Assembly (NCBI GenBank): GCA_963922205.1
Contig: CAWUHX010000234.1
Location: 527,189-591,188 of the forward strand
DNA from: Romanomermis culicivorax
Lineage: Eukaryota; Nematoda; Enoplea; Mermithida; Mermithidae
DNA length: 64,000 nt
Reading direction: 5' to 3'
Below are positions 30,001 through 63,890 of this stretch, piece after piece; the first letter of the stretch is position 1; the number at the start of each line of letters is the position of its first letter. The position numbers and the translations under genes were made by a program. The notes beneath the pieces were generated by a model. The model was not told the DNA's origin and searched no databases. It was given only the letters and a program-made list of their open reading frames with translations.

Positions 30001-32387
30001 TTTCTTTTTTCGGATCCAGGGTCTATATTGTTTGAAAGTGTTGTAGTGACATTTCCAGTCTCCCACAACTGTTTTAATCTCACTTTACAACTTCTTGCAC
30101 CTCACAACAAAAGATGAGCATGTCTCAAGCATCTCATCATCACCGGGCGACGCAATTACTGTAGTCATTGCGTCATGTGCCAGAATTTTGGTCAGTGAAT
30201 CAGAGTTAGTGTTTCATATTTTATCAACTGTACTTACCTCTGCCGAGTAAACTCCTGGCCGCACATTTGCCGTCGTCATTCGAATTATTTTAAATTGAGA
30301 AATCGAAGATTTCTCAATTTAGAATATTTAATTATTGAATAAAATTTTGAGCGTTTGTTGTGTGAAAGGGGGTACATGCCCCGGCCAAGCACCAGGTAAG
30401 TCTTAGTATTAAGGTCTGAATTTTTGGAACTCCTGCCTAAAACTTTTTTGAATTCAAAATTAATCTTATTTCTTGGTGAATCACCAGATCCAGAGTCCTT
30501 GATAGAAATAAGGAGAATTAAAATATAAACGAGCGAATGGGGAATGTCAAAACTGATCGAATTGAATCTAATGGATTTTGATTGATTTCAAAATATGGGT
30601 TTTTGCACTTGGAATTCAAGTTATCAAATTCCAGATAAAATTCGGCGCCCTTCCACATTTGACTTCCTTGGGGACAAAACGTCAAAGCTGCATTACGTGC
30701 CGAAAACTGGGGTTCGATTGAGTATTGGTTGAACCATTTGGATCTCTGACTTTAGCACTTGAGAATGTAAACACATGTTGGCTATAAATCTATATAAGCT
30801 ATCAAAATAGAATTATATTCTGTTTGAGAAGCTTGTAAACCCTGAGAATGGAAAACATGTAGTTCCCTTTTTCATATTTTTACTATTCCCAGCTTAACCA
30901 TTCATTGCATGAGAACTGAAAATTTGTGAACTCGCTCGACTAGGGCTTACTTTTTGGAAGAAGTTCTATTGTGAACCTGGAAAGTTCATATTTTTTTGTA
31001 TACTCTGACTGCATACACATGAGTTACATGGTTCATTTGGTTTAGTTTTCAAAATAGTGAAGTCGAGCTGCATATCAATACTTTGTTGGGGGTTTTAATA
31101 TTGTACACCTATTGCAATAATGTGACTTATATTTTTCAAGTAGCATGCTGCAGAAATGCTTCACAATTGAAATATTTGAGGTGTTAAAACAGAACAGCAG
31201 GCAGGACGGCCCTTTTGTGCAAATGTTGAAAAATGTTAAATTCGTGCAAAATATCTTCTCCGCAAATTCAAATATTTTTTCATGTTGCAATGTTTGGAAA
31301 TGTCATACATATCGATTCAAAAAGGACATAGTAATTTAGAATAGAACCAATGATGGACACCAGTCAATTTTTGATGTTCAATGTTCCATAATCATGTTGT
31401 AGTGATGCGTCTGGCTATTCATACGTGGCATAGTTTTGTTATCCACGGATTTGATGGTTCCTACTTCAACATTGACTACTGGTTGACAAAAATCGCTGGA
31501 ACACCACTTGTGTTCCAGAGTGAGGATGTTGTTGGTGATTTAAACCCCATTTTGAATTATGACAAATGATTGGCCTTCATACACTTTATTAGTCCATACT
31601 TGTCCACATATGCTAGGTGTCACAATTTCCTGTTTGGTGGTGTCTAGAACTATTCCTCCTGCTCCAAAAAATCCTCACAGTTCGATCTCTAAGTAGACAT
31701 CGCACAGCCTCGATTTTATTCAAGTGACCACTTGTTGACCAGACAATCAATGGAATTTATTTCTTTTCCATGGCAAATAAAGATGGTGGTTGACAGGGTA
31801 CTCCCCAAGGAACAGTGATAGCTCGGCCTCCTCGAGACATGCTACATCGATAAAATGGTTTGGCTGTTGTTCGACCAATGAGAAAAGAGAACAAAATAAC
31901 CAACATCCAAGCTAGAAATCAACTTTTCGTTTGTGATGGTTTTTGTATTTTGTAGAAAAACGTGAGAATGGTGGTTCAAATCAGGGTGAACAAATTCGAA
32001 CTCCTGAATGCTTGAGCATTTCTAAATCTTCATCTGGCCCAAGGTCAATATCTTCAATTTATCTGTCTGTGCATTTCAGAACTATTTGATGAAATGGTTT
32101 GAGTGCGATAAACTGTTACCAAATCTTCCGATTCAAAGTCAGGGACACTTTCGATCTATGACCTTCTATTTCCTCTTTGTATTCTCGGATTAATTTGGGT
32201 AGTAGGTTGATTGTGGGATGTATTTTCGTCTCCTTGTCTTCTTTTGGCTCCATTTGACACTTTCAATGGCCTATCTCGCCCCCAATTAGTTCGAAAAGAT
32301 GGCTGCAATCATTCACTGGATGACTCGGCAGGTCCTTGGTCTGTGTCACTAAATCGCCTCAGCCAACTTGGATTGACAGTTTGCCAA
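30001..32387. other. Non-coding; one hairpin, no recognised gene
   Basis: Only short unsupported ORFs. A perfect inverted repeat lies at 30291-30321. A 62-codon ORF at 31381-31569 (MFHNHVVVMRLAIHTW) has no recognised relative. Confidence 0.4.
30291..30321. repeat. Perfect 14-bp inverted repeat with 3-nt loop
   Basis: TAAATTGAGAAATC, then GAA, then GATTTCTCAATTTA. It could form a hairpin in DNA or RNA; it could also be the tip of a small element. Confidence 0.8.
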
Positions 32388-32972
32388 TCATGATAAGTGA
32401 CTGGCACCTGATTCGCCTGGCAACTGACTGCAAGCAACCAGCTGTTCGTATTTGACATCAGTCTGCCTATTGTCCGGGAAACTTTTCAAAAATGCATTTG
32501 ACCACTCTTCCCATGTGTGAAGAGGGGGATTCCTAGCTTCGAAGTCTGCAATGTAAATTAAGGCAGGGCCTTGCAGATAGGTGGACAAAAGTGCAGTTTT
32601 CCTATTTAACGTAGTGGATCTGGCTGACACTGATATTCTTGAAAATCGTTTTTTCCAATTGGTCCAATTGATATCCTCCAGAGAAAGGTGTCAGGTCTCC
32701 AGAGTGTTGAATTATCGGTCGTGTGTCATACATTTTTCCCACATGATTCACAGTTTGAGGCAGTAATTCTTGCATTTCTTGTAAGTTTGCCAATGGAGTT
32801 GGTTGGGCCATTTCTGGATCAGTGCTAATTCTTTTTCGCTGGATGAGCTACTGTCTGATCCTGGGAGTGAAACTGTGTCTGCAATTTTTCTGGTTCTTCT
32901 AGGTTCAAATAAATTGTGAGTGGCGTCTGCAATGATATCATCAACAGTATGGAAAAGTGATCTGTGAGCCAT
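32388..32972 (-). pseudogene. Retrotransposon Gag relic (frameshifted)
   Basis: The N-terminal piece (MAHRSLFHTVDDIIAD...SDSSSSSEKE) at 32972-32748, a middle piece with FSGGYQLDQLEKTIFKN (32811-32602) and a capsid-like piece, LLSTYLQGPALIYIADF...WEEWSNAFLKSFPDN (32630-32388), lie in order in two frames with two frame changes. The pattern ALxYLxG-Ax-W-x-F-xxFP is that of the retrotransposon Gag capsid domain. No LTR or pol is seen next to it. Confidence 0.65.
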
Positions 32973-36479: not shown

Positions 36480-37095
36480 ATTCTCACTTGTAGTAAAAGA
36501 GTGTAAAGTGACCACTTCATTGAATTCCCCATGATCAAGAATTGCCCAATCCAAAAAACCGCAGAAATACCTTTGTTGGCCCACAGAACATTTTTTTGTG
36601 TAAAGTGACTGTGTCCATTGGATTCTCTATGGCAAAAACCCCTTAGACCAATAAATGACAAAAATACGTTTGTTTACATCCAGGAAAATTTTTCGTGTTA
36701 GGTGATTGGATTCAATAAATTCCCCATGGTTGAAAACCCCTTCCACAAAAAAATCACCGAAAACGATTGTTTACACACAGCATAATTTTTTGTGTAAAGT
36801 GAGTGGATTCATTGAATTCTCCGTGGTCTAAGATCCCTTGCCCCAACTAATCACAAAAACACTTTGGTTTACACCCAAGATAATTTTTTGTGTGAAGTGA
36901 TGCATCTATTGGACTCCCTGCAGTCGGAAACCTCTTCCACCAAAAAATGACGAAAAATGAAATTTTACATGCCAGATAATTTTTTTAAGTGAGTGCATTC
37001 ATTGAATTCCCCGTGGTCTGAAACTCCTTGCCCCAAAAAATTTCGAAAATAGGCTTGTTTACACATGGGACATTTTTTCCTGTAAAGTGAACAAA
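36480..37095 (+). repeat. Tandem repeat, about six units of 95-100 bp
   Basis: Units share TTGTTTACAC-x-TAATTTTTTGTGTAAAGTGA, then GGATTCATTGAATTC-CC-TGGTC and CC-AAAAAAT. Starts recur near 36570, 36668, 36766, 36864, 36960 and 37055. Units are diverged from each other. Confidence 0.8.
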
Positions 37096-37770: not shown

Positions 37771-38895
37771 ATGGATGATTTACGAAATGAAATTGAACTT
37801 CAAAAAACTGAACTGGAGCAATTACGAATTTCTGCCACCCGACCACAAAATCGTTAGGATTTTGACGTCTTTTACCGTAGGCCGGGGGAGAACTTTGAAT
37901 TATGGGTCGATCGTTTCAACAGGCATGCACAGGCAAACAATTGGAAAGATGACCATAAGTGACTGGTCATGCCTTCACTATTCCGTGAAGCAGCAGAGAC
38001 AGTTTATCCTGCCATTCCTTTGGCACAAAAACAAACATTAACGTTCCAAGGGCTAATTGACAAGATGAAGACACGATTTCTGCCAGCCCAAGCATCAGAA
38101 TTAAAGAGCGCCGAAGTACAAACCAGGTGTCAGCGTCCAGGAGAAACAGTGACGGAATTTGCCATTGCTATCCAACAGCTAGCAACCGAAGCTTATCCAG
38201 AGCTGGCTGATGATTCACGAAATCAAATCATGCGCGGATTTTTTATCAACGGCCTTAATGAAACTTTATGGCAATGTGTTTTCAATCGGGGAGCAAAAAA
38301 GTTCGCTGAGGCAGAAATGGCTGCCAGGGATGCAGAGGCGCAGTCCGTTTTACCTAACAAGAACAGGACACGTGTCCAAGCAATGGAACAACAGCCCCAA
38401 CAGAGTCGTCCAGTGGTACAGCGTCATACAACAACATCCAATTATAGAAGACCATCTGCAAGACCTACGGATCGGACAATCAATGGACGCCCCATCTGCT
38501 TCTTTTGCCAACAACCGGGTCGTGTGCAACAGGTGTGCAAAAAGTGTCTCGCGCTACAGCGTCCATACAACAATAATAATAATGGTCATGCTCGCACAAA
38601 TTTCTCGAATTGGAACCATGGTCAGACATCTTCAGATGCACAACAACAACAATATCGCCAATACCAGCCGAGAGGAGTTTATTCCATGGATATGAATACG
38701 AACCAAACAGCAGTGGAAGAAGATCTAGCATCTGAACTCGAAAAGGGACGGAAGTCCTCCAGGCAATTAGCAAGCCAGTGTGCTGCTTTACGACGTCAAG
38801 TGGATCGTATGGTTTTGGAAAGTGTAAGCAACAATTCAAATGCACGTATCAATTTCTATTATGCAAATCAAGTTCAGAAAAGTTCGAATATTTAG
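37771..38895 (+). pseudogene. Gypsy-2 gag, broken by two stops
   Basis: The ATG at 37771 opens a 374-codon frame with TAG at 37855-37857 and TGA at 37960-37962. It has an N-terminal coiled coil (LRNEIELQKTELEQL), a retrotransposon Gag capsid domain (FELWVDRFNRHAQANNW, FQGLIDKMKTRFLP, ETVTEFAIAIQQLATEAYPEL), and one degenerate zinc knuckle CFFCQQPGRVQQVC in which His is replaced by Arg. A second coiled coil (LASELEKGRKSSRQLASQ) follows. It is distinct in sequence from gypsy-3 gag. No 5' LTR could be defined upstream. Confidence 0.8.
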
Positions 38896-38988
38896 TTTGT
38901 CAAAAATTTTTAAAATGTTTCTTGTAGTGCAAATTTAAAAAATTGTGTTAAGGAGTCAATTGGTGCAAGTGTAAAAAGTACTTTTCAT

Positions 38989-40316
38989 GTGAATTCGACG
39001 TATTTTTCGAGTGCAGTTTCAGTAATTCGCAACATAAGCATGCCAGTAAGAAACAAATTTTTACGTTTCAAAATGGGTCCACAAGTCAAGTCATGCATAA
39101 ATGGTGTTAAATCACACAAAATATGGTCAAAATTTGGTGCATGCAGTAATTTTTCTAATTTGCTTTTGTTCACCCTTTTATTTGCGAATTTATTAATTTT
39201 TGCATGTGGTGAAACTCATACTTTTTATCACTGTGGGTCTGGAAAAGGTGGGCAGTTATTTGCAGTACCCCCGATATTACGTGTTTGCCACCACCGTTGA
39301 ATTCCCCAAAAGAAGTTAGTGTCAAATTATTTCTGCCCAGTCACGAGTTGAATTCAGTGCATGCATGGAAATGCCGGATCAGAAAACGAAAAGTTTGCAC
39401 ATATGTGGGCATTGTTGGGTCCAAAGGTCTAATTTCAGACACAGTCGTCGAAAATTCAGTTTCTCATGCCGAATGTAAAGCTACTGTCATGACCAAACAG
39501 TGGCGTGGTCAAAATTTGGTATCATTCAATGATGATACTTTTGTTATAAATAACAGTTTAATTGTTCAGTTTAAGTACTGTTGTGCAGAACATTGCACAG
39601 ACGTAGAAAATTTTATCATTGAAAAAGGGCAAGTGGCCACCCTCGATGGTCACCTAATCACCACTGACCTAGGCAATGTTGGGTCATGCTTAGCCCAAAG
39701 TGGTTACTGCAACATGCCTGACGGTGTAATTTTTTGGGATAAAAGTAAGTTGCAACCTGCCTGCCGTTTTGTAGAGTCATCTTGACCATATTTAGCACGG
39801 CAGAATGGTAATTTTTACATCATAGATGACATACAGGGTGCTTTTTCTTTGCTAAATATCAGTGTCAGTAGCATGACAGGTAGACACTGCCTTCCATCCA
39901 ATGCCTTTCTTACACATCAAGGCCCTGCGTTACAAATTCTGTCTATCAACGGTAGCAGTCCCAAAATTTCACATAAAAATCGTGCCGCCAAGACGTCTAC
40001 TGCAGCTAAAGCTGCAAAAGAGCGAAAAGTAGCTGATACTATCGGGTTCAAGATTTTGAATGATGAAAAAGATCCAATTAATTCCAAATTAGAATATTTA
40101 GAAATGTCCATAGAAATGTTCCATCAAAGCCATTTCCGGGAAATCTGGATGTATTTGTGTGAAATCTCCAGACGTCAGTTAAGCCTTATAAAGGTTCTAC
40201 TACAGATTGATCCATCCTTGGGTGCCCAAGTCTTACTGCAAAAAGAAAACTTGCACGCTCAAATCGTGGGAGAAGCCATTTCTATGTCAGAGTGTGATCC
40301 TGTCCACCCTGATACG
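38989..40316 (+). pseudogene. Gypsy-2 envelope-like glycoprotein, directly after gag; frameshifted and truncated
   Basis: The N-terminal part at 38989-39300 contains a strong hydrophobic signal-like segment (LLLFTLLFANLLIFACG) in one frame. The ectodomain continues in another frame from 39285 to 40316, with a TGA at 39783-39785. The Cys pattern and motifs correspond one to one to the gypsy-3 envelope: CRIRKRKVCTYVGIVGSKG, YCCAEHC, IEKGQVATLDG, LGNVGSC, GYCNMPDGVIFW, and later NSKLEYLEMS and LLQIDPSLGAQVLLQ. The gene is cut at 40316 by the inverted repeat arm, so no membrane anchor or pol is left. Surface-protein function is by similarity to gypsy-3 and by features only. Confidence 0.7.
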
Positions 40317-42432
40317 TGATGCCGCATTAAGTGAAAAATGCATGACTGTAGTGCACAAGCACTGCAGAACACGGCCTGTGAATCGTTGCAATATCGAAGA
40401 AAAGCCCAAATAATCGGGATCCAGTGTCAAGGGCTGCGATATGATGATAGAATGAAGCTGATATGATGATAGAACTTCCAACCCCAATACACTCATCGAG
40501 GCCATATTTTTCGGCCAAAATATAGTGTGTGTTGTTTCATTGAGCAAAATTGAAGCAAAGCGCCATGGTTGTTGTGACGTCACACAAAGGAACAATTGAC
40601 TCTTTTGCACGACAACCAATCAGACTACGGGCAGCCATTACACTTGCCACGCCACAAGTGGGATATAAGAGATAGGTTAATACAGAGGTATCATTGAGGT
40701 TTTTTTTCTTTTTTTTCTGGGCGTCCGTTTTTTTTCCGCACCAGAATTTGTGGCTTAGTTTTCTATATACAAAATTTACATAAGACTATATTTACTGCGT
40801 AGTTTTATTTGGCCGTCCGAAATCGATTGAATTTATATCATAAAAACTGTTTTTCATGTGAGTAAAATTACAGATCAAATTCTGCGCTCATTCCCATTTG
40901 ATTGTCTTGATGACGAAATATCAAAGTTGCATTCCAGGCTGATCACCGGGGTCCAATTAAAGTTTCGGTTGACTATTTGGGTATCTGATTTCATCACTTT
41001 ATAATGTATGAATCAAGTCACCAAATGGAAAGACTTTTAGAAGCTGGAAGAGTGGGAGGCAGGTGATACTGGTCTCAGTGACCAAATCTGAAGTGTGTTC
41101 GTATTTTGTTCCAATTTTAAAATTCGCAGTTGAAATGTCGTTATTTGCTGGCATGCAGCTCCATGATGCGGGAAATGCATGACAAAATGCTGTTCTCTCA
41201 GTCCTTTCATCAGTAACACGAAAATACACATGCTAAAACTGTTAACAGGTAATACCTTGTCAATTCAAAATAGTTACGTTCCAATTCGAAATACGTTTAG
41301 AAAAAAAACTGATCTTCTGTAAAATTCACTCAACTAAAAATCCGACCATTCATGGATCAATAGAAAGAAGAGTAAAAGAAGCTCAGGGTTTAATTTTTGA
41401 TGGCATTACTTTAAAGAAGAATAAAAAAGTGTTTTATCCCCCTATTTCGACCCTCTTCTAATAAGAAAGATTCCAATAATTTTGGACACAAATTTTGTTC
41501 TAGAAAAATGAAAATCTACAGTTTATTTTTTATACCTCGATGAGTTAACGACGTGAAAGGACGGTCAAATTGATCCGAATGCCTATGCAGGCATTTCGAG
41601 AGAAATCGACCGTTCATGCAAATTAGAAAAACAAAACAAAAAAATTTTCTCACTTTTTTACCTTGCGGTTTGCAGAACAGAGAAGGGGTCTCATCGCCAA
41701 AAACAATGCATCTCTTCTTCATGCTTAGAGGATAAGAAATCCTCTTGGCTATGGGTCTATCTAAACATGACCCCAACATTGATACTGATTGAGGCAAATA
41801 TTCTTGTATTTTATATCAAAAAAGCATGAGAATATTTTTCTAATTTCAAAAACTGTTTCATATTGTTGATATAAATGTAAATTGTAAATACAAATTTGTT
41901 TTTACAAATACAATTTTGTAAAATCCCGAGGTGAACTGCCAAGTTGAAGGTATATTATCCACAGATGAGGAATGGTGGACAATCAACCATGACTTCTGCT
42001 CTCGATAGTTGCATAAAAGGTCAGTTCCTACTTCTTATATGTTGACAACTTAGCCATTTTATTCCTCTCAAAGTACATTTCAAAAGTTTTGTTCAGTGAA
42101 ATTTCCTGTAGCTAACCTAATCTGGTTCTTGTGCCAAAAGTATAGTACGGATATGTTAACGGTCTTCTATTTCTCTCCACTTTGCCTTGTGTAGTCCGAA
42201 TGGTTTTTTGTGCAAGTTGTAGCATTAGGTTTGCAATAGTTTATTTTTCCTTCTTCTCAAAAATAAAAAAATTGATTTTCTGCCTTTTACCTCACAGTCT
42301 CACAATTACCCCATGATACATTTAGTATATGTCATTTACCGAGAAAAAAAATTCGGACAACAGCGATTTCTGATGCTCATTTGAAAAAAATAGACTAGAG
42401 TGAAAATTCGAACTGGTAATGTTTTTTGTTCC
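40317..42432 (-). repeat. Large compound repeat, arm B, left part
   Basis: Reverse complement of 10882-12519, plus about 0.5 kb (40930-41450) that is absent from arm A. It truncates the gypsy-2 envelope at its left end and is itself split by gypsy-3 at 42433. Confidence 0.85.
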
Positions 42433-43322
42433 TGTAACGTACCTGCTAAAGCAGTACTGTAAATATGTAGCATACTGTATGTAATAGACATTTATTAAAT
42501 ATTGTTAATTTTCACATTTTATCGTCTCAAGGGTGTCTGGGATTCACACCCAAACATTCCTACAAAATTACGTGAAGTAGTTTATTTTGATCCGTTCACA
42601 CGCCGGTAGCCCAATTAAGATGCCCTAATTAATTTGCACAAACGGCAGCTGTTCCCCTAGAACCCACACTAAACTACACATTCCACAGCTACCGTAATCC
42701 CCAGTAAAAATCATAAACAACACCTGCACACAGTAAAATGCATAGAAGCCCCGCCGTACAGTAGTCTCAAGTGTAACGGTAGCGGCGGCCCCACAAAACA
42801 TGTGTATACAGAGAAACCGATACAGGAAGCATGCACAGAAGCACAAAGGTGTGGCCAAGCCCACCGTAGAAAGCAAGCGAAGCACAGAAAGCATACAGTA
42901 CCAGAAAAGCATTAGAGAGGCGTAATTAAGTAGCATAAAAAGCGTAGCAGGAAACGACGATTGGCGGAAGAAGATGGACAGAAGCTCGACCTCCCGCGAC
43001 GCCCAGGGAGTGGCCAAGATCGCCGTATAAAAGAAGAAGCAAAGCGTGATTTTTTTCATTCTTGTATCATTCAATTTTTCGACCCAGCGCCCGTATTTGC
43101 AAGCATTGTTTTGAGAGCGAGTCTCATTTTTATTCGGAAGCAATTAAGCCGTGTATACTCGCCGCGTTATTGTATCATTGTCGTATCGACGTCTAAAGCA
43201 GCCGTCGAGTATTGTAAAGCCGGATATTATCGTCCCCGTATTGTACCGTCCGTGCCCTTTTTCCCCGCTGTATCGTCCAATTGGTTAGAAGTAAAGTACC
43301 TCACACAAATCTGGTCGTTACA
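42433..43322 (+). repeat. Gypsy-3 5' LTR
   Basis: 890 bp with perfect 7-bp inverted termini TGTAACG/CGTTACA. It closely matches 50813-51374; diverged relatives lie at 57885-58416 and 63065-63890 in reverse orientation. Confidence 0.92.
43026..43033 (+). promoter_or_regulatory. TATA box in the gypsy-3 LTR
   Basis: TATAAAAG, well placed in the second half of the LTR for transcription of the element. The diverged LTR at 63065-63890 has a TATTTAAAG at the corresponding place. Confidence 0.6.
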
Positions 43323-43327
43323 TATTT

Positions 43328-43345
43328 TGGTGACCGTACCGTTAC
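43328..43345 (+). promoter_or_regulatory. Gypsy-3 primer binding site
   Basis: TGGTGACCGTACCGTTAC starts 5 bp after the LTR end; TGG matches the CCA end of a tRNA. TGGTGACCG resembles the Arg-type primer sites of insect gypsy elements, but the tRNA is not determined. Confidence 0.55.
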
Positions 43346-43565
43346 GTTAACCACTGGAACTCCCTGCCCCCAATTAGGTGTACTCTTATCCGGGCATTTA
43401 GAAGCATTAGATAATACAGTAGTAATCATTTCCTACAGTAAGACAGTGTTCGTAGAAAGCAAACTGGAAATCCCCTCCAATGAGACATTAAGTGATACAT
43501 TTAAACGAATACAGCGTGAAGCAAAAATTGAAGCATTTAAGCAGAAATCCCATCGTAAACCAAGA

Positions 43566-45140
43566 ATGACCCACCAAACGCAAGATCATTTAGGAGAAAT
43601 CGTTAGAGAACAGATAAACGATTTGTTTTCAGAACATTTTCGTACCCTACGCACACAATTGAATCAGAATACAGTAAACCCTACCCTAATAGACGATCTA
43701 AGAACAGCAAACATTCGTAATAACATGGCAAACAATTTCTACGCGAAACCTACAGTATTCACGGGTGGCGTGACCCAACATTTTGGTGAATGGAACAAAA
43801 GATTAGAACAATTCATGGCACTCCAAGGCATGAAAGATACAGACGTACAGTTAAAGTTGGCATGTTTAGAAATTCATTTAGGAGGAGCTGCGTTAGCAAA
43901 TTTCAAAAGTTTAGCCAATTCCGAAAACCCTCCCCACACATACGAGCAGTATAAAGTCGCATTACAGTCATTCTTCCCAAACAATAGAGATAATGAGCTA
44001 CATCAACAATTCTTACCCGAAAGAAAACAAAAGCGTTCAGAAACAGTAACGGAATTCTTATTTGATCTAGAACATCTCGCAACCCTCGCCTACCCTAACT
44101 TTAACACAGACGCACGAGAAATGATCATAAAACCCCTCTTTGTAGAAGGCATGCAAAACGAAATCAGGGAAGCAATTAAGTATAGAAGGTTTGCAACTCT
44201 AAAAGAAATGTCAGACGAAGCAGCTTACATTGAACAGCAAATTCTTAGAAACGAATTAAAATCTAATGCCCTTCCCTTCATACCCCCAAAACCCGAACCC
44301 ATCTTTTCCCTAACCAAAAACACAGACCAACAGGATCTTTTGCATCAGTTAGAACAACAAGTAAAAGATTTACAGTTGCAGATCAAACAAAAACCTCAAC
44401 CCCCACAACAAAGTAGCTACAACAATTTCAGTAACAATACTTTCAGCAGGAATAATGCTTGCAGGAACAATACCACCCCAAGGCAACCCACATGCTTCCA
44501 GTGTGGACAAATCGGACACGTAGCTCGTAATTGTAAATCAGTAGGCATCTGAAAATCATGTGAAATCTGTTTCTGTAATAATCACAGTACACGTGATTGT
44601 AAAAGCCGATGCATCCACTGTTCCCAAACAGGACATAGATCAGATAACTGCCTTTCAAAACCCTACTCCAATTTTCAATGTTTCACATGCAAGCAGAGAG
44701 GTCATACAAGCAGGTATTGCCCAAATCAGCAGAGCCATAATATTCAAAATTGCATTGAGTACAGGCAACCCCAACCCCTCATGGACATTGATGACCCCGC
44801 ATTTTACTCAAAATTACCCGCCATAACTAACGGCCCTCAGACTATTTTAGGAACTATCATGCCCAACACCCACGGCCGTAGTGACGAATACGTCCTTGAT
44901 CTGGACGTACCCGATTGGTGCGCCATGTCACCACCCCCCATGCCTGAAGCCGCAAAAATCGAAAAATTGCCGCCCACCATCCCCGTAGGCTACAAGATCC
45001 CCCGAAAGCCAAACACTACGCTGCCCACCGCCCCCGAAACCCCGTCAAAAACAGGCCGCAACTTGTTATCCCTTCTCCATGGCCTGACCCCGAACCCTAC
45101 CAATTCCGCCCCTGCCAAACACTTCTACCGACCCCCATAA
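43566..45140 (+). pseudogene. Gypsy-3 gag with four tandem zinc knuckles, one nonsense codon
   Basis: The frame is open from before 43281; the first ATG after the primer site is at 43566, giving 524 codons with one TGA at 44550-44552. Residues about 60-240 form a Gag capsid domain (FGEWNKRLEQFMALQG, LFDLEHLATLAYPNF). A Gln-rich coiled coil (LLHQLEQQVKDLQLQI) follows, then four CX2CX4HX4C knuckles: CFQCGQIGHVARNC, CEICFCNNHSTRDC, CIHCSQTGHRSDNC and CFTCKQRGHTSRYC. The last three lie just after the TGA, and their preservation suggests the stop is recent or is read through. A Pro-rich tail ends at 45140. Gag would package RNA and form the particle. Confidence 0.85.
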
Positions 45141-45325
45141 GTAAGCAAGTCCAAACCCCATCCCATAACTCAACTTCTAAAGTTTTACAGAACCTTCAGA
45201 TTGCAAACCGGCCACCCCCCCAGCGCAAAACTGCAAAATGACAACACCAAAAGTCCCAACACCAAACCGGCCACAACGAAAACATACAGTGCCCCGCCGC
45301 CTCCACTAAAACATTCTATTGGCCG

Positions 45326-48300
45326 ATGTTTTGTATTTTTCTTTGTATAATAATCCCCACATCATGTAGTGCCCAATTTCAGATGTGTGGAACTTCATTG
45401 AGCGGTCACTCAGTCAGCATACCAAAACTTGTATCATGCATGACCCCTTCCACAATAGACAAACCCGTACAGACATTCGGAAAAATCTATATCCCCTCCA
45501 CCAAACCTCACATAACAGACGCATACAAATGCAGTGTTTGCAAACGGAAAATTTGTACTAATACAGGATTTTTTGGATCAAAAGGTATTGTCTTCGACCA
45601 AACCGAAATGCAAAATCTAACCCCGCATGTTTGTAAGGCAATCGTTATAGACAAAGAACACAACGGTCAAAAATTATAGGAAACCCAGCCAGGATTTTGG
45701 TCAACAAACAACTCCCTAAGCATAGAATACACATGGTGTTGCACAGACCACTGTACCTCGGTCACTAACATCATCATAGAAATAGGACAAATAGCATCTT
45801 GGAATGGAAAATCTATGACAGGTACATTAGGTGACCTGGGGTCATGCAAACCGACATCAGGTCATTGTGTCACAGCGGATGGATGCATTATCTGGAATGA
45901 AACAGCATTTGAAAACTTATGCCCCTTCAAATACAAAAACACGCATCCCATAAAACTCACGCAAACCCACATGATACTAGAAGAGCTACAAGGTGCATTC
46001 TCAGTTAAAAACACACTGTTTTCGAGCCCCAATTGCCCAGAAATCCAAGACAGCATTCTAACCGAACAATGCATTATCGTACAATTAGACAAAAGCACCC
46101 CACATTGTAACGCATTTTTAACCCCAAAAACCAACAAAACTCATACTACATTATACGATTTTGATGATTTTGAACCCATTAACGCAAAACTAAATTATCT
46201 AACAGACAAAATCTAAGAATTCGAAGATCAAAATTTTAAAAACCTATGGAGTGAATTATGCAGACAGGCACAGCATCACCTTGATCTCGTATGGCAAATT
46301 TTGCGCCTTGATGCAACCCTTGGAGCGCGTGCATTCCTACAGGGAACCGACATCATAGCAGAATTCACAGGAGAAGCCCTCACTGTCTGGCCCTGTAAAC
46401 AAGTAAACTCATCTAAAGTCTTCTACAACCATAAAATCAACCAAACATGCTACAAACTTTTGCCCATTCTCGTAGGAACTGAACTCATGTTTTCAAATCC
46501 AGGTGGCAACGATTTGACCCCTTTCTCACAAACCATTGACTGCCATCACATTCATGTAGCCCTTTACAAACAGAATAGTACATGGGTAAGTGAAACAGGA
46601 TCCCCGCATGTCACAAATTTACCTTTAGAAATCGTCTGGAACCAAAATTTCTCCCTTTTCCATTTTAATACACCCGCCATTTTTCATGATCAACTTGCAA
46701 CTATTTCAACCAACTTACTCTTTTTGAAACAATACATTTACAAAACTCACACACTCGAAAACATTGTCAAAAAACTCGTCAATTACACCACCCAAATGTC
46801 TCTCAATTCCGATACAGTTTACAACATGATCTCAGGCACTGGCCAAGCACTTGGAAATACACTCTCTGGTGCCGGTCAAGGCATAGAACATGTAATAACT
46901 GGTACCACCCAAAGTCTCACGGATGGATTAAACAATTTACTCAAAGGACCCTTGCAAATCATTATCAATCTCACCGTTATTTCTGTAGTTATTGCAGGCG
47001 TCTTTTATTCGTTTCTCGTTCTTCGAAAATATTTCCCCTCTCCAGAGCATCATGCCACAAACGAACATGCATACGAAATACCATCAAACAACAGACATTT
47101 ACATGAGACCATTCCCCCATCATTCGGCCATGCTCTCTTAGAATTAGCTAATCGTCCTGGGGAACAAACACAGCAGAAATACGTCCTTGTTGATATTGAT
47201 ACCCCCCGAACTCCTGCAATCCAACTCATTAATCAAATTCACCAATCTGCATCAAATAAGCCACCCCAAAACGTACCTGAGAAACATACCCCTCATATTC
47301 CAATCACACTTAACGGCAAATTAATGACAGAAGGCATGATTGACACTGGTGCAGTTTACTCACTCATTGATTCCAGAATCGCTCAACTTTTACAGTTAGA
47401 CATGAAACCCCCGCTAGTCCAAGCAAAAGCAGCAAATAATCTTCCGATTCACTTTGTAGGTACCACTTTTGTCACAGTGACAGCCCAAACAATCCAGGAA
47501 ACAATCATGGTCCATGTCCAAAAAGATTGCACAGCAGACATCCTTCTAGGCAAAAAATTTCTCAGTCGATTTTCGGAATACACTATCAACAATCAAAAAT
47601 CACAGGTCAAATTTGGCAATGTTATACTACCGTGTGATGGCCTAGAATACAGCCCTCTTTCAACTCGTGGTGGAACTTATTTGGACGAGAAATTAGAATT
47701 ACCACCCCGTACAGTAACCGAATTTACTGTCCCCTTGCCCAAATCGTACTTACAGGTCAAACAGCTTGAATTCACCCCGAAACCCAAACAGAACTCTAAA
47801 GTCCGTTTCGCAGCTTGTATATCTGAGAATCAAAACAGTCCCATACGCATATCGGTCCTAAACACACAAGAAACAGCCCAAATTCTTTACCCTGGAACAT
47901 GCATTGGTACAGTCTCCTGTTACATCCCGAAACAAAATACTCCCGCTAACGTAACCCCTTCCACGCAAAACCAGCCCAACCGTTTTGATACATTCACATG
48001 GTTAAGAGAAAATGTTAATTTAACCTCCAGTGACCTCACAGAAGCAGAAAAAATGCAACTCCTACGCGCCCTATCGAAGTACCCTACATTATATGCTAAA
48101 TCCAAAATGGACGTAGAGAGAACCACCCTCGTTTCACATACAATTGACAACAATGGCTCCCAACCCGTACGTAGACAACTTTATCGGACTTCCCCAAAAG
48201 AAAAGCAAATCATACAAGCAGAAGTTGAGCAACTCGCAGCAGCAGGTGTCATAAGCAAAAGCAATTCCCCATGGTGTACCAACACAGTTTTAGTTCCCAA

Positions 48301-50416
48301 AAAAGATGGAGGCCATTGTTTATGCAATGATTTTTGAGGCCTCAACAAAGTCACAAAAAAAGATACCTACCCCTTGCCCCGGATAGACGAAATTCTAGAC
48401 ACCCTCCGTGGAATGAAATATTTTACGTCCCTTGACCAATCCAATGCATACTATTCCATTCCCATAGCACAAGTAGACAGAGAAAAAACGGCCTTCAATT
48501 GCTCAGCCGGCCAGTATCAATTCAATTACCTCCCCTTTGGACTCACCAATGCCCCAGCCACATTCCAAAGGTTAATGGATGTTATTCTTTCGGGTCTGCA
48601 ATGGAACACATGCCTTGTGTATCTCGACGATGTTTTGGTATTCGCAGACTCCCATGCCCAAATGCTGGAACGTTTAGACACTATTCTTGCCCGATTCTCA
48701 CAAGCAGGCCTTAAGCTAAACATACAAAAATGCAAATTCTGCCAGCCCCAAGTCCAATACTTAGGCCACGTCATTTCTCAGCAAGGCATTTCACCAGACC
48801 CCCATAAGGTACAGGCAATCTATGACATACCCACACCCAAAAGCTCAAAAGAAGTTAAATCATTCCTTGGCCTACCCTCGTACTATCGCAGATTCATCCC
48901 AAATTGCTCTCAAGTTTCTAGCCCACTCACATCGCTACTCAAAAAGAATTCCGAATTTTCCTGGGGCCCTGAACAACAAAATGCATTCACTAAGCTAAAA
49001 GAATTACTCATTCATGCCCCAATACTGCAGCATCCCGATTTCACCAAACCGTTTATTCTGCAAACTGACGCCTCAAAACTCGGAATCGGCGCCATTCTCA
49101 GTCAGCTAGATAGTAAAGGTCAGGATCGCCCCATTGCTTTTGGGAGCCGCACATTGAAACCCGCAGAACGCAACTATCCGATCACTGAGTTGGAAACCCT
49201 TGCAGTAGTCGAATTTGTCAAGTATTTCCGCCCCTATCTTTTCCAGCAACATGTTATTGTACACACTGACCACACAGCAGTTCAGGCAGTCTTACAAAAG
49301 GAAAACCCGTCCCCTCGCATTGCCCGTTGGGGATTAGCCCTCTCTGGTATTCAACTCGACATTCGACCTAAGAAAGGCACTGCTAACCGCAACGCAGATG
49401 CAGTTTCTCGATTCCCCTCACAGACAGCAAAACAATCCTTTGATATTGAGCAATTAGAAACCCGCCCCGAAATATCCACTATCAATTCGGTTTTGGAAGC
49501 TGAAGCAACTGAACAAGAAGAACAACAGAAAAATTTTGCTGAACTCCAACGCACTGATCCAACTGTCAAGAGTATTTTAGCAAAAATTGCCCAAAAACAC
49601 CCCCTTACCCTTATCAAATTTGCAGTGCATCAAAACATTCTCTTCCGTATAGTCGACAAACAGGCAAAACTATACATTCCCAAGTCGCAAGTCCAGCATC
49701 TCATTGCCTCACATCATGACAGCAAATTCACAGGTCATTTTGCAGCCCGGAAAACTTTACACTTGCTCAGACAGAAATATTTTTGGCCCCAAATGAGCCG
49801 TGATATCAAACGTTACTGCAAAACTTGCCACCCATGCCAGACACAGAAAGCTCTTAGACACAAAGTGCATGCAAACTTGGTACCAATTCAGCCGACTGGC
49901 CCATTTGATAGAGTCGGTGTTGATTGCATGGGACAGTTACCCCTCACTGAAGACGGCAACCGATTCATTGTCGTTTTCATCGATTATTTCACAAAGTATG
50001 TAGAGGCATTCCCGACCCCTGACATCACCGCAGCCACTATTGCCAAGCTATTCGTAACCAAAATTGTTTGCCGTCATGGGTCCCCAAAAATCATCCATTG
50101 TGATCGTGGCTCCGATTTCGTGTCTGATCTCTTTTCCGGGATCACCAGTTTATGCAATACTCAGAAAATTCACACTACCCCATATCATCCCATTGCCAAT
50201 GGGGAAGTTGAGCGTTGCAACCAAACCCTAGCCACCCGTATCCCCATGTACATCAATTCAAATCACACTGATTGGGATACTTATCTGCCCTATGCCGTTT
50301 TTTCGATCAACATCCATAAAAATGATAGCACATCATATCCCCCATTTGAATTACTCCACGGTAGACAAGCTAATCTGCCGTCAACTTTTTCCCCACGTCC
50401 TACATGGTTGATTTAG
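45326..50416 (+). pseudogene. Gypsy-3 envelope-protease-RT-RNase H-integrase in one frame (three nonsense codons)
   Basis: A single + frame of 1697 codons, interrupted only by TAG 45677, TAA 46214 and TGA 48335. Residues 1-17 (MFCIFLCIIIPTSCSAQ) form a signal peptide. About 18-540 is a Cys-rich, N-glycosylatable ectodomain (CKRKICTNTGFFGSKG, LTPHVCKA, WCCTDHC, LGDLGSC). A Gly-rich stretch leads to a membrane span near 543-567 (LTVISVVIAGVFYSFLVL). After a ~90-residue linker comes protease MIDTGAVYSLID. RT has YLPFGLTNAPATF and YLDDVLVFA; RNase H has LQTDASKLGIGA and VHTDHTA; integrase has HH...CKTCHPC and Asp, Asp, Glu in VGVDCMG, IHCDRGSDF and NGEVERCNQ. All catalytic motifs are intact. The integrase tail continues in another frame. 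Confidence 0.85.
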
Positions 50417-50781
50417 AAGATTATGCCCTTCGTGTAAAATCGCATTTCACAGAAGCACTCTCAACCGTGCAGAAAAGTTTGCAAAAAGCCCAAGCCCACT
50501 ATACCCGTCAGTATAACAAGCATGCTCAGAACATACATTACAAGGCAGGTGATCTTATTCACTACAAAAATCACTCGTGTAAACAAGGGCTGACTCCCAA
50601 ATTCCTCCCTCGCCAAAACGGACCCTATACAGTTACGAATTTCATGTACCCCAATGTTACACTCAAACACCCCCATAAGAATATTACATTTACGGTGCAT
50701 GTAAATGAGACAACCCCTTTCTACCCTCCGAAAGCAACTATCGAATCTACCCCCACCCCTCCTCAACCTCGAAAGCCTTGA
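50404..50781 (+). pseudogene. Gypsy-3 integrase C-terminal domain, displaced by a frameshift
   Basis: A new frame from about 50404 continues the integrase: helical KSHFTEALSTVQKSLQKAQA, then YKAGDLIHYKN and GPYTVTNFMYPNVTLK, the SH3-like C-terminal domain of Ty3/gypsy integrases, ending in VHVNETTPFYPP and a Pro-rich tail. The upstream frame stops at 50416, so a one-base shift lies just before. This is the only frameshift I see in the pol region of the element. Confidence 0.8.
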
Positions 50782-50796
50782 ACGAGGACGTTCAAC

Positions 50797-50812
50797 TCCG
50801 GAAGGAGGGAAA
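50797..50812 (+). other. Gypsy-3 polypurine tract
   Basis: CCGGAAGGAGGGAAA directly before the TGTAACG of the 3' LTR: the plus-strand primer site. Confidence 0.85.
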
Positions 50813-51374
50813 TGTAACGTACCTGCTAAAGCAGTACTGTAAATATGTAGCATACTGTATGTAATAGACATTTATTAAATATTGTTAATTTTCACATTTT
50901 ATCGTCTCAAGGGTGTCTGGGGTTCACACCCAAACATTCTTACAAAATTACGTGAAGTACTTTATTTTGATCCGTTCACACCCTGGTAGCCCAATTAAGA
51001 CGCCCTAATTAATTTGCACAAACGGCAGCTGTTCCCCTAGAACCCACACTAAACTACACATTCCACAGCTACGGTAATCCCCAGTAAAAATCGTAAACAA
51101 CACCTGCACACAGTAAAATGCATAGAAGCCCCGCCGTACAGTAGTCTCAAGTGTAACGGTAGCGGCGGCCCCACAAAACATGTGTATACAGAGAAACCGA
51201 TACAGGAAGCATGCACAGAAGCACAAAGGTGTGGCCAAGCCCACCGTAGAAAGCAAGCGAAGCACAGAAAGCATACAGTACCAGAAAAGCATTAGAGAGG
51301 CGTAATTAAGAAGCATAAAAAGCGTAGCAGGAAACGACGATTGGCCGAAGAAGATGGACAGAAGCTCGATCTCG
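50813..51374 (+). repeat. Gypsy-3 3' LTR, truncated
   Basis: The first ~562 bp of the LTR, nearly identical to the 5' LTR, ends abruptly at AGAAGCTCGATCTCG and joins repeat arm B. The last ~330 bp and about 0.7 kb of flanking repeat have been deleted together. Confidence 0.9.
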
Positions 51375-53490
51375 TCAGTTTTGAACTATTTTTCCGGCAA
51401 GTAGGCGAGTGATATATTGTAGCAACTGTAGAGCTTATATCGCAGCCAGCTTGTTGCATAAATGATTTAGAAAGTTCGGTGGAATATTGTATATAATTCC
51501 GATCTAGAGTGGACAGTGAGCTTAACCTGCTTGGATTTTTGTGCATTCTTGTATTTAAGAATTCATTGCACATTACCCGTCAGGTCCAGCTTTCAGTCAC
51601 TTTTTTTTTCTTTATTTTCTGATTAATTTTTTCATGTCAGTTTTATTTTATTGCCAAACAGAAATTTGATATTTCAGCATGTAAAGCACACATTTGTCAC
51701 TAAATTCAGTGCCAATTTCATGTCAAAAGAATCAAATCTCATTCGAAATTCATTTGTAATTTGTAATACAATCGCAATTCATTCTAAGTTCGCTCGAATT
51801 TGAAATTCTTTACCGATTTCAAAATGTTCAAAATCTGAGTCCTTCAATGAAGACCCGTTCGAGCAGGGGGCGGGGTATCATTCAATATAGCTGTCACGCG
51901 AAAATAGGAGCCTGCACCCCTGATGTGTATGACCGTGGCGGCCGAAAAGTTGCAATTTAAACGGAGAAGGGCCAATATGGAACTGCAGTCCTATGATGCA
52001 TGTGAACCCAGTGATGCAACACCATGTGGCACGCAGTTTGAATAATAGCATAGTAAGGATGAGAAGAACACAGTGACTGATTTGGCCAATAGGCTAATTC
52101 AGTTTCGAACACCAATTTGGCCAATTTAGTTTCAAACACCATGAACTCTGAACCAATGAAGAATACTGGTTCGAATTTTGCAGAGAAGATCAAGTTAGAC
52201 TTATTTAGAATATCAAAGATGCAGATAATTTGATATCAAGAGGCGAACTGGTTCAATACAAACCAATAAAAATCAGCTGTGTGAAAAATCGTTCAAGAGA
52301 AAATGAATGAAAATGCAGTCAGTAGGATAATTAATGTGTATTAATTTGTTTTTTAACTACTATCTCTGCAGCGACAGTCTTATATTTTACTGCATTTCAA
52401 TAATACTACATATGATGTTTGACCGTGTGTCAAGAACTGAGAGTTGTGTTCATAATATGCTAGCTGTAGTTGAGCCAACTTGCATTGATTTCAATCAGTG
52501 TACAGTGATAAAACGTCCGAGTTTGAGTTGGCAATCAAGAGAAACCTATAGTTCAGCAGGAACAGGTCATAACTGAAAACCAAAGCAGACCATCAAAAAT
52601 AAGCGTATTTTGCATTGGGAAGGACCCAAATTCCGTCACGATCATACAATGTCAACTGAGAGAGAATATTTTACTTTCTCTGCTGTGTTGATTTTCATAC
52701 CTAGAGTACAGAGGAAAGGTTTGAGTTAGGCGACCCACTAATTAAGCTGATATGCACTTAGAGGTTTTCTCATCGGTCCTTATCCGGAGGTTTTTTCAAA
52801 CTCTGAGGAGCTTTTTTGCCTGCAAATGGTACTTATACAGGGTGACCCTGAAGGAATGCAACCTATGCTGACTTACAATGCTTTCGAATGGATGAAGCTT
52901 TTCTAATACGGTTTGCGGCCATCGACAGATAAAACGTCTGGCATGAATAATGTGAATCCATATCGCTAAAAATTGACTGGCTGGAATCAAAAATACTAAA
53001 CGTCGATTTTTCGCAAAAACACAAATGGGAAGGACAAAAATCAACATGTTTCTTGAGAGAAAAAAGTAAAATTCATCTAATGATAAATACTAGATAACAG
53101 CTGAAAAATACAAGAGAGACGTTTAAATAAGCCCTCCTCTCTGTTTCACCACTAGTTTTGATCGTTTTTCAAGGTGGTCAATGGCAGCATCGAGCTTGGT
53201 TAGATCAAGTCTATCAAGATCTTTTCCTTCAGTTGATCACAGATTGACTTTTCATAAAAAATTTCTTGTTAAACCTTTCAAACATAGTAACCAGGTGGAT
53301 TCGAGTCCGAATAATTTGGAGGTCATTCGTTAGGCCTCAAAAAATCAGGAAAATTTTGTTGATTCAATTGACAGTGTGTCTGGATGTATCTTTTACGAAA
53401 TTTCCGTCTATGTTGAAACCATAAGGGTTACGACCGTAAAACTTTGCTTTTAAAACAGAGGTAAATAGGGGATCCTAACGTATCAATCTG
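51375..53490 (-). repeat. Large compound repeat, arm B, right part
   Basis: Reverse complement of 8020-10165 with high similarity throughout, including the block CTTTTTTGCCTGCAAATGG and the mariner relic (53113-53460). Confidence 0.85.
53113..53460 (-). pseudogene. Tc1/mariner-like transposase relic, third copy (in arm B)
   Basis: Counterpart of 8110-8386 on the minus strand, with the same PPNYSDS-type block and C-terminal helix. It differs by a few bases. No intact frame. Confidence 0.55.
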
Positions 53491-56111: not shown

Positions 56112-56582
56112 TCACAACTGATGCTGCTGCGGTGGCATGGTACATTGTGGCTGCGGCAATTGTTTGGCGTCAGGGTGAGGGGCATTTTCGGTAATTCGCA
56201 GTGGTAAGCATTTGTTTCCAATTTCGATATATTCATTTTTGAAATTGAGCACGGCATTAATTTCGGGATGGGTGAGAAAGTCGGTGCCGATGGTGAGTTG
56301 ATCTTGTGTATCATCGTCGAGGACAACACATTTGAGGGGATAGTTGCCAAATTCAGATTCCATGTTTATGATGACTGGTCCATGAGCTTGGACGATGGCA
56401 CTGTCAGCAACTCTGATCTGCCCCCAAACAGGCAGAGTCAGCATTTTGTTGTCAAATGCATGTTTCATTAGGCCAGACGAGATGACGGAGCATTGAGCAC
56501 CAGTGTCAATTAGAGCGTTCGTGTTGATGCTGCCGATTTTGGTGAGAATATGGAAGGCATTTGTTCGGGTATATTTTCTCAA
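56112..56582 (-). CDS. Gypsy-4 retroviral-type aspartic protease
   Basis: 156 aa, uninterrupted. The active site NALIDTGAQCSVIS (DTG) lies near residues 25-38. A flap region follows (GPVIINMESEFGNYPLK), and IGTDFLTHPEINAVLNF near residue 100 corresponds to the conserved Ile-Gly-x-Asp-Leu segment near the C-terminus. It would cleave Gag and Pol precursors. It lies downstream of gag on the minus strand with a decayed zinc-binding region between them (56600-57160). The 3' end is a Gln/Pro-rich tail. It is likely part of a larger broken gag-pro reading. Confidence 0.75.
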   Translation of the reverse strand: MRKYTRTNAFHILTKIGSINTNALIDTGAQCSVISSGLMKHAFDNKMLTLPVWGQIRVADSAIVQAHGPVIINMESEFGNYPLKCVVLDDDTQDQLTIGTDFLTHPEINAVLNFKNEYIEIGNKCLPLRITENAPHPDAKQLPQPQCTMPPQQHQL

Positions 56583-57168
56583 AGCCTGGGTAGCTGATGG
56601 AACTTCCTTGACATTGCAAATAGCGGAGCAAAAAACCCAAGGCAGTTGACCTTATGGTTCCACGGAATCCCAGCCAGCTATGCAAGGCGTGATGCTGGCT
56701 ACAACATTGGTAGTCTTCGGCAGATCAGCGACCATATTGGCAGCAGGTCTAGATTGAGAGGAAATGGCAGCACCCGATGAGTGGGCCATGGTATCGGCAG
56801 CAGTCCTCGGAGGGGCTGGCAATCCAGCGGCAATGGAGGTGCTGTAGGGTTGAAACATGGAATTATGGTGTGGCAATCATGATTGTAGTAGTGTGTCCGC
56901 AATTGTGTCTCCATTCATCTGTTGTTCCAACATCATTGTTGAAGGCGCGATTGTTGAAATTGACATTGGGATTGTTGTTGTGGGGCACCATTCATCGATC
57001 TGGATTTTCATTGTAGTTTCGGTACTGTTCATTCATTTGTTTCAGCCAGATACAGTTCTCGGTATTGTGAGTGTGTGTTTTATTGGCATCATACCACATA
57101 CTAGAAAACTGGGATGGCGGAAACAAATTGCGGTCGTGGTTGGCTGGTCTATTGTATTGGTCATGAGA

Positions 57169-57885
57169 TCAATTGCGGCTTCGGAATGTGTCACGATCTT
57201 GGCGTTCATAGTTGTCATTTCCTTTAGGCAGCATGGACAAGCTGGATATTCTTTCTTCTTGTTCGTCTATACGATCCATTATCTTTTGTAAAAGGATGAC
57301 GGTTTTATCAATTGGAGAGCCGCTACTCAATTTGACATGATTTCTATCAGATGTAGAAACCATATCATTTTCACGGCAATCCATAAGCTTATCACCACTA
57401 GGATGGCCTTCAAAACGTCTAATTGGTCGAGGCGAGGAAAGCTGGGTCACAGCTTCTGAAGCCACATGATTCACCTTAATCGGTTGGTCAACAGTGCGGA
57501 TCTCGGCTTTTGTAGCATTGAGCACATTACAAGCTTTCGTGATAGCTGCAGCCAATTGTTGGACATTTGTGAAATTTTCTGCTTCTTTACCAATAGTTAT
57601 TTGATAGAAAAGTGGCATTTTAGTTAGAGAAATTTTAATGATTGTTTGATGCCGAAAAATTTGATCTTTATGTTGGTAAAGAAGTTGCACATACGTCATT
57701 ACCCGGCTTAGAAAAGTGGCAGGCTCTTCTCCAGCTTCGGGGGCAATTGCTACTAATCCACGTTCAAGCATCATTTCGTTGCAATCAGGAGCAAGTTGGA
57801 ACATGAACAGATGTTTGGCTTCGCCATATTGATTAACATCTAGAATCATATCACTGGGGGCATCATGCCTGAGATGGTGGAGTGA
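57169..57885 (-). pseudogene. Gypsy-4 gag, N-terminus replaced by LTR sequence
   Basis: The frame extends to 57924, but its first codons lie in LTR sequence of another family, so the original start is lost. The remaining ~240 codons contain LFMFQLAPDCNEMMLERG and PGEEPATFLSRVMTYVQLLY-type helices (EEPATFLSRVMTYVQLLYQH), followed by QQLAAAITKACNVL and a coiled coil (IMDRIDEQEERISSL), consistent with a retrotransposon Gag. After the stop, the continuation has HTHNTENCIWLK, a zinc-knuckle-like remnant. Assignment as Gag rests on its position before the protease and on composition. Confidence 0.6.
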
Positions 57886-58416
57886 AATCTTCTTCCGCCA
57901 ATCGCTGCTTCTTGCTCCTTCCACTTCGCTTGTTTAGTCATGCCTTCCAATGCTTTCCTGGTACCATATGCTTTTACACTTCTCTTATGCTTGCTTCCTA
58001 CAGTGGACTTCACCATGCCTCTGTGCTTCCGTGTATGCTTCTATATCTATTTCTTCTGTATATACATGTTTTTGTAGGAACCATCACTACTGTTCCACTT
58101 GAGACTTGTGTCTGGCTGGGCTTCTACTTTTTACTGTGTGCAGGTGTGTTTACGATTTTTATGGGGAATTAATGTAGCCATGGAATGTGTACTTTCATGT
58201 AGATTCTAGGGGACCAGCTGCCGATGCACAAATTAATTAGAGCATCTTAATTGGGTCAATAACAGCAGGGTGTCGGACAATCAAAATAAAGTACTTCACA
58301 TAAATTTATAGGAATGTTTTGGTGTGAATTCCAGACACCCTTGAGACCAAAGATTATGAAATGAATTTAGTGAACAATATGTATTCACATTAATGAGTTA
58401 GCATGTACATTACATT
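57885..58416 (-). repeat. Gypsy-3-family LTR fragment (U3 part)
   Basis: Diverged but continuous match to the first ~530 bp of the gypsy-3 LTR in reverse orientation (CTTGAGA...GTGTCTGG, TTAATTGGG, CCAGCTGCC), with a recognisable outer end (TAGCATGTACATTACA). It is joined directly to the gypsy-4 gag. Confidence 0.75.
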
Positions 58417-63064: not shown

Positions 63065-63890
63065 GTAACGCCCAGATTCTAATTGTACTTTTACTTGATC
63101 TTGATACTGCATGTTTCACAGTCCGCGGGGACGCAGGTAATGACAATTTACGAGGATAATAGGATAAAGGCGAACACTAAATCAACGATTGCTTTCCTCA
63201 TGGACAAAATACACGAATACCCTTCTTCACAAAAACAAGTCTCACTTTTGAAAAAAAGGTTTCTAACAGTCTCCCTTTAAAAGACACCCTTTCATAAAAT
63301 CTCGCATAAGAAGAACATGATTTCAAAAAATCTGATGGAATCACGCTTTGCTTCTCTTTAAATACTGCTTTTTTAGCCACTCCCTTGGCTCGGGGGAGGT
63401 CTGTTTCTGAAAATCTTCTTCCGCCAATCACTGCTTCTTGCTTCTTCCACTTCACTTGTTTAGTCACGCCTTCCAATGCTTTCCTGGTACCGTATGCTTT
63501 TACACTTCTCTTATGCTTGCTTCCTACAGTGGACTTTACCATGCCTCTGTGCTTCTGTGTATGCTTCTATATCTGTTTCTTCTGCATATACATGTTTTTG
63601 TAGGAACCATCACTACTGTTCCACTTGAGACTGGTGTCTGGCGGGGCTTCTACTTTTTACTGTGTGCAGGTGTGTTTACGATTTTTATGGGGAAATTAAT
63701 GTAGCTGTGGAATGTGTACTTTCGTGTAGATCCTTGGGGACCAGCTGCCCATGTGCAAATTAATTAGAGCATCTTAATTGGGTCAATAATGGCGGGGTGT
63801 GGGATGATCAAAATAAAGTACTTAACATAAATTTATAGGAATGTTTGGGCGTGAATTCCAGACACCCTTGAGATGATAGATTATGGAATG
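63065..63890 (-). repeat. Gypsy-3-family LTR, diverged, minus orientation
   Basis: Starts with TGTAACG (the inner end in this orientation) and follows the gypsy-3 LTR in reverse complement through the GGAGTGGC/TATTTAAAG promoter part and the CTTCTTCCGCCAATC and CTTAATTGGG segments, to the CCAGACACCCTTGAGA segment, after which it diverges. No gag or pol of this copy is visible in the window. Confidence 0.75.

Follow-up and report, generated by a model that had tools for sequence, protein, structure and literature searches.

In the textbook retrovirus the gene order is gag-pol-env and Env is produced on its own, and the question raised by a locus in the mermithid nematode Romanomermis culicivorax is whether an envelope can stand in the middle, joined in one reading frame to the enzymes that follow it. 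The locus lies in a 64-kb stretch of DNA, here called the window (assembly GCA_963922205.1, contig CAWUHX010000234.1, positions 527,189 to 591,188 of the forward strand); coordinates are positions within this window, on the plus strand unless marked. The element in question, which we call focal, is a long terminal repeat (LTR) retroelement with Ty3/gypsy-type enzymes at 42433-51373, or 8941 bp in this copy. A sequence-only reading had placed its envelope gene (env) between gag and pol, fused in frame through a linker of about 90 residues to protease, reverse transcriptase (RT), RNase H and integrase, with three nonsense codons. The domain order seen with Pfam and hydropathy bears this out: a single plus frame (position mod 3 = 2) from 45326 to 50416 encodes a signal, a Cys-rich ectodomain, a membrane span, a linker of about 93 codons, protease, RT, RNase H and integrase, and is interrupted only by nonsense codons at 45677, 46214 and 48335. 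The best explanation, and in our view a probable one, is that the locus is one decayed member of a multicopy family of endogenous, retrovirus-like LTR elements whose frame reads Gag-signal-Env-span-linker-protease-RT-RNase H-integrase, with a proposed Env-Pol membrane route.

Across the env ectodomain, stops number 35 and 26 in the other two plus frames; from protease to integrase they number 41 and 56, and over the span and linker 3 and 7. A chance open frame was rejected, the linker being open in 1.9% of 5000 Markov shuffles and the stretch 46217-48334 in none of the 5000. A database protein of 1925 aa, P0011, gives one tblastn match to the locus, aligning residues 6-1743 to 45326-50374 in one frame at 28% identity. 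The claim of a single frame to the integrase held through 50416 but not for the integrase tail, which in the focal copy shifts to another frame and reaches a stop at 50779. The focal gag (first in-frame ATG at 43566; stops at 44550 and 45138) is likewise out of the env frame. This copy is thus decayed at several points: env-pol has three nonsense codons and gag another, the integrase is frameshifted and the 3′ LTR truncated.

A 2121-bp piece spanning the junction served as query for a DNA-level search of the genome to which the window belongs, an assembly of 595 contigs and 359 Mb. Of the 41 matches, one is the window itself and 39 are further places in the genome; the last is partial, lies next to one of the 39 and is left out of the frame counts. 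The junction might have been unique to this copy, as the sequence-only reading had allowed, but at least 39 other places carry it at 96-97% identity, the matches being 2117-2121 bases long (the number is a lower bound, scores having been computed for 40 of 1261 candidates); the copies differ from one another by 0.8-4.4%. Nor do most of these relatives show the stop between span and protease that the same reading had named, along with an intron, as a possible objection: the linker is open in 33 of the 39 copies, with a stop in six and a frame-breaking length change in none, and its shared variants fall mostly at third codon positions. Span, linker and protease together are open in 32, and everything from signal to RT (45326-48334) in 24. 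The focal nonsense codons at 46214 and 48335 recur in none of the 39 and that at 45677 in one, while the ATG of the env signal is kept in 26. Gag had been taken as separate, which is true of the focal copy, where it is in another frame, but not of the 28 of 39 copies in which a gag anchor is in phase with env; in a separate check all three gag zinc knuckles were read in the env frame, again in 28 of 39. Read backwards, the env frame meets no stop before the piece begins in 21 copies, and in 16 a single frame stays open through all 3.8 kb, gag tail into RT. For the first 20 of the 39 copies, additional pieces covering gag and pol were counted separately. In all 20, 43566 is the first in-frame gag ATG, and the gag frame is open from there to the piece end (44700) in 16; in 11, which do not share the integrase shift, a single pol frame extends from 48338 as far as the 50779 stop. 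Since 28 of 39 copies have their gag knuckles in frame with env, the family plan, as read from these copies, is one Gag-Env-Pol frame of which the focal copy is a decayed form.

Variants among the copies indicate how this frame is used. We computed the ratio of nonsynonymous to synonymous polymorphism (pN/pS) for each region and frame from variants present in at least two of the 39 copies. In the proposed frame the ratio is 0.08 for env (32 nonsynonymous, 105 synonymous), 0.13 for the linker (7 and 16), 0.07 for the protease (4 and 17) and 0.10 for protease and RT together (21 and 61). The other two plus frames give 1.2-4.9 over all regions, and 2.70 and 1.37 for the linker. When all variants including singletons are considered, the values are 0.18-0.25 in the proposed frame and 0.98-1.42 in the other plus frames. 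The shared linker variants fall at codon positions 1, 2 and 3 in numbers of 2, 4 and 17 (binomial p 8e-5, which assumes independent variants, something that kinship among the copies does not guarantee). Judged by these variants, the env-pol frame is under purifying selection through the linker, and it follows that the junction is translated.

The C-terminal half of env matches the Pfam family Monjiviricetes_fusion (PF24664), with an E-value of 2.3e-14 in the focal piece and of 6.1e-12, 7.6e-19 and 8.2e-14 in the database proteins P0009, P0010 and P0011, respectively. P0010 also has a weak match to herpesvirus glycoprotein B (gB). A Foldseek search with a structure model of P0009 points the same way, as the 50 rows shown are all herpesvirus glycoproteins, with E-values down to 2.5e-9 and low TM-scores; by title they are gB except for two titled only varicella-zoster glycoprotein. 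The envelope thus has the marks of a class III fusogen, similar in type to gB and chuvirus glycoproteins. The protein searches with the focal or the P0009 envelope gave no hit to a free-standing viral glycoprotein.

Those searches define the relatives. With the whole focal piece as query, P0008 was the sole hit; it is a Pol lacking an envelope, its start lying close to the protease. The focal envelope part returned P0009 (one of 1810 candidates), and the P0009 envelope returned three of 7452 candidates, namely P0009, P0010 and P0011, for all of which we have protein records only. P0009 consists of Env, protease and RT with its start missing, P0010 of Gag, CCHC knuckles, signal and Env, ending at the span, and P0011 runs from signal peptide to integrase in one protein. 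A similar picture emerges within the window, where a second, diverged element and a third, decayed one each have env following gag (Table 1). The second family has 20 matches in the genome including the window's own, two of them shorter than 65 bases and some others partial, and its other longer places are 72-98% identical. Four places were read: one is open over its full length, a single frame of 1366 codons that takes in gag, env, span and protease; two have the protease after env in another frame; and one is without a protease match in 1.7 kb. As far as can be read from them, the second family and the three database proteins show parts of the gag-env-pol order, a layout that may have had one origin or several. 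Scans of viral contigs with P0005, P0011, P0010 and the alignments A1 and A3, and of genome contigs with A3, matched patterns and confirmed no relative; phage records, Rfam (at the gathering threshold) and a tRNA scan gave nothing useful.

How such a chain might work is suggested by its predicted topology. By hydropathy, hydrophobic regions occur solely at the signal and the span (P0009 being without its start), and N-glycosylation sequons number 33 in 2105 aa of ectodomains against 19 in 3528 aa of gag, linker and pol stretches (p 1e-4; focal gag not included). On insertion into a membrane, a chain of the form Gag-signal-ectodomain-span-Pol would keep Gag and Pol cytosolic and the ectodomain outside. 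With two hydrophobic segments, Gag and Pol would therefore end on the same side. Gag would be synthesized by the ribosome in the cytosol, the internal signal segment would initiate insertion into the endoplasmic reticulum, and signal peptidase would release Gag. The ectodomain would be luminal until the span stops transfer, after which linker and Pol would again be cytosolic, starting as the tail of Env. Gag assembling at the membrane would then collect Env-Pol, and crowding would activate the protease, which would cut the linker and free Pol inside the particle. Env would take the packaging role of the retroviral Gag-Pol fusion, with neither frameshifting nor a separately spliced env. A membrane-tethered Pol is plausible in that it is consistent with the predicted topology. 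The full proposal is that there are compact Ty3/gypsy-type retroviruses in which Gag, a class III Env and Pol form one polyprotein crossing the membrane twice, with Pol packaged as the cytosolic tail of Env and self-released by the protease, all without a frameshift or spliced env; this we offer tentatively, as a possibility slightly short of an even chance.

Other explanations differ mainly in how Pol would be produced. If Gag-Env and Env-Pol were joined in the DNA but ribosomes produced Env-Pol on its own, initiating internally or reinitiating at the ATG of the signal peptide, one would expect proteins such as P0011, which begins at the signal peptide, and the ATG kept in 26 of 39 copies and the gag anchor out of env phase in the focal copy and in 11 of the 39 fit as well. 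We nevertheless consider this somewhat unlikely, given that 28 of 39 copies are in phase, that gag is fused to env in P0010 and that a copy of the second family has an unbroken frame between gag and protease. Selection on the linker as codons of the Env-Pol frame speaks against alternative splicing, in which unspliced RNA would give Gag-Env(-Pol) and working Pol would come as Gag-Pol from RNA with env removed, leaving the in-frame junction partly incidental. Retroelements often splice, and there are two acceptor-like AG sites near the span and the start of the linker (46988 and 47047), but the linker is also open in P0009, P0011 and 33 of 39 focal-family copies, and the genomic DNA aligns to P0011 across the junction without an intron; we judge the splicing account unlikely. 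An intron in the linker as sole explanation is rejected owing to the selection on the linker as codons, and an additional spliced form may exist beside the unspliced one. The decayed state of the focal copy, with its nonsense codons, integrase frameshift and truncated 3′ LTR, would also be expected if an ordinary gag-pol-env element had been rearranged there by recombination or deletion, or had received a separate envelope insertion. The 39 or more other places with the junction lead us to reject a rearrangement of one copy, and as the second family and the three database proteins have a matching partial order, we hold any such origin to be very improbable.

Returning to the single Gag-Env-Pol frame with its membrane route, several observations weigh against it. 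Eleven of the 39 copies are out of phase, and in 15 the stretch 45326-48334 is interrupted. When the gag tail was first counted, reading from the piece edge, 0 of 39 copies were open; this was set aside as an alignment-edge artefact, as the two later counts of phase and knuckles disagree with it. One of the three minus frames in each region, the codon-position mirror, also has a low pN/pS (0.13-0.21), which is the expected shadow of third-position bias and weaker than the signal in the proposed frame. The codon-usage signal of the linker is weak, 69 of 2000 shuffles scoring as high and two of the three minus frames higher. Among the relatives, P0008 is closer to the focal RT-integrase (39%) than is P0011 (34%), so that related Pols without the fusion exist; P0011 starts at its signal peptide and Gag may be separate there, and P0009 and P0011 could each derive from a gene model that contains introns. 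The linkers of different families give no convincing alignment, and that of P0009 has as many sequons per residue as the ectodomains. The structure model of P0009 is poor (mean pLDDT, the predicted local distance difference test score, of 44) and offers a hint of fold class at most. Finally, the proposal, with its putative cleavage site in the linker, is drawn from sequence, and a 1:1:1 output of Gag, Env and Pol would be unusual for particles.

Though the sequence-only reading knew of no described element with this layout, there is an earlier one: Burro, giant Ty3/gypsy-like LTR retrotransposons of planarians, encodes a single long polyprotein with an in-frame env placed after gag and before pol (PMC6431247). 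According to that report, Burro exceeds 30 kb, and its ORF1 (4,873 or 5,140 aa) includes BCL2, ankyrin and BIR among other domains; its env, reported to be homologous to gypsy Env, is connected by the authors with the fusion proteins of baculoviruses, retroviruses and paramyxoviruses, and gives hits among the fusion glycoproteins of mononegaviruses from arthropods and fish (PMC6431247). By this description, Burro and the focal element share the in-frame env between gag and pol; they differ in that the focal element is about 9 kb long and that BCL2, ankyrin and BIR were not found in a Pfam scan of the focal pieces. The env class may differ as well, gypsy-Env-like in Burro and class III here, though the mononegavirus hits of Burro leave either possible.

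A class III glycoprotein is found in other LTR elements. Anakin, BEL/Pao elements of mosquitoes, is described as having a chuvirus glycoprotein, and env as lying downstream of the polyprotein in three other BEL-Pao elements (PMC7642597). On that account Anakin and the focal element both combine LTRs with a chuvirus-type (class III) glycoprotein, but the enzymes of Anakin are of BEL/Pao type and the focal ones of Ty3/gypsy type. In errantiviruses and retroviruses, Env is made from spliced RNA. Their env is placed separately, downstream of gag and pol, in errantiviruses (gypsy, ZAM) and retroviruses alike, with an F-type Env in insect errantiviruses (PMC12992720). The focal element resembles both groups in its LTRs, gag, protease-RT-RNase H-integrase and envelope, and departs from the errantivirus pattern of an F-type env after pol, since its env precedes pol and is of class III type. 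Type III fusion glycoproteins in gypsy elements are mentioned in PMC13172572, and Dezordi 2023 reports insect gypsy fragments beside such glycoproteins with “no clear evidence” of capture by gypsy elements (PMC10084718). Within the literature searched, what is new relative to Burro is the compact (~9 kb) form, the class III envelope, the several families and the evidence of selection. Chary and Hayashi (2025; eLife 108449, as cited in PMC13172572 and PMC12859917) reportedly treat envelope-carrying gypsy elements across metazoans, and their work may already describe the focal layout.

A selected design with Env in the middle, present in several families, shows that the gene order is not fixed, and suggests an alternative route by which Pol is brought into particles. 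It raises the testable question of whether an internal signal segment and a span place Gag and Pol on one side of the membrane. Annotation that seeks env solely after pol will miss such elements.

Table 1. Features of the focal element and of two related elements in the window
Feature	Position	Strand	Remarks
5′ LTR	42433..43322	+	890 bp; termini TGTAAC...GTTACA; 98.0% identity to 3′ copy over 561 bp
TATA-like box	43026		within 5′ LTR
Putative primer-binding site, TGG...	43328..43341	+	5 bases past 5′ LTR; identified by eye
gag	43566..45140	+	CCHC knuckles; capsid-type matches below Pfam cut-off; nonsense 44550 and terminal stop 45138 in this copy
env signal peptide / internal signal segment	45326..45382	+	hydropathy; ATG 45326
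env ectodomain, predicted class III fusogen type	45383..46948	+	Cys-rich; nonsense 45677, 46214 in focal copy
env membrane span	46949..47020 (approximate)	+	hydropathy
Span-to-protease linker, in frame	47021..47299	+	~93 codons
Aspartic protease	47300..47569	+	PF13975, PF13650; E 7.3e-8
Reverse transcriptase, YLDD	48014..48775 (start approximate)	+	E 1.1e-33; nonsense 48335 in focal copy
RNase H	48962..49345	+	PF17919, PF17917
Integrase: zinc-binding, core, C-terminal tail	49676..50781	+	PF17921, PF00665; tail in other frame in focal copy
Polypurine tract	50800..50812	+	sequence
3′ LTR, truncated	50813..51373	+	561 of ~890 bp kept; starts after purine tract
Second, diverged element	37870..40313	+	gag 37870-38895, then directly env 38914-40313; cut by another repeat
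Third, decayed element	31429..32669	-	gag match 32669-32439, then env matches 31855-31429

The focal element has the features of the Metaviridae (Ty3/gypsy), with TG...CA ends of its LTRs, a polypurine tract, a primer site recognized by eye and the Pfam order protease-RT-RNase H-integrase. The best relative of known structure for its RT-integrase is Ty3 (7q5b, 7.9e-108), far above retroviral chains, and the sub-threshold Pfam matches of gag are to Ty3-capsid and PNMA. The 3′ boundary of the 5′ LTR was placed by the inverted terminus and the TGG-type site beyond, which we take to be a tRNA-complementary-like primer site. The flanks of the element (40315-42433 and 51373-53488) match a repeat copy at 8021-12518 in reverse at 92-98%; about 730 bases of that copy are absent at the insertion, and as the 3′ LTR is cut exactly there, a deletion probably followed the insertion.

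Several other repeats lie in the window. Two LTR-like repeats at 57885-58369 and 63411-63896 are 93% identical to each other and 77% to the focal LTR, which they match in reverse; they enclose an integrase piece (60868-61755, minus strand). RT and integrase pieces at 13748-16135 (minus strand) belong to another gypsy-like element, with about 30% identity to the focal Pol, and there is a retroelement aspartic protease piece at 56112-56651 (minus strand). Of two tandem arrays, that at 36592-37090 has a period of about 97 bp with 69% matches, and that at 23603-24679 consists of 6.3 copies of 171-bp units with 95% matches and is overlapped by open frames of up to 278 aa.

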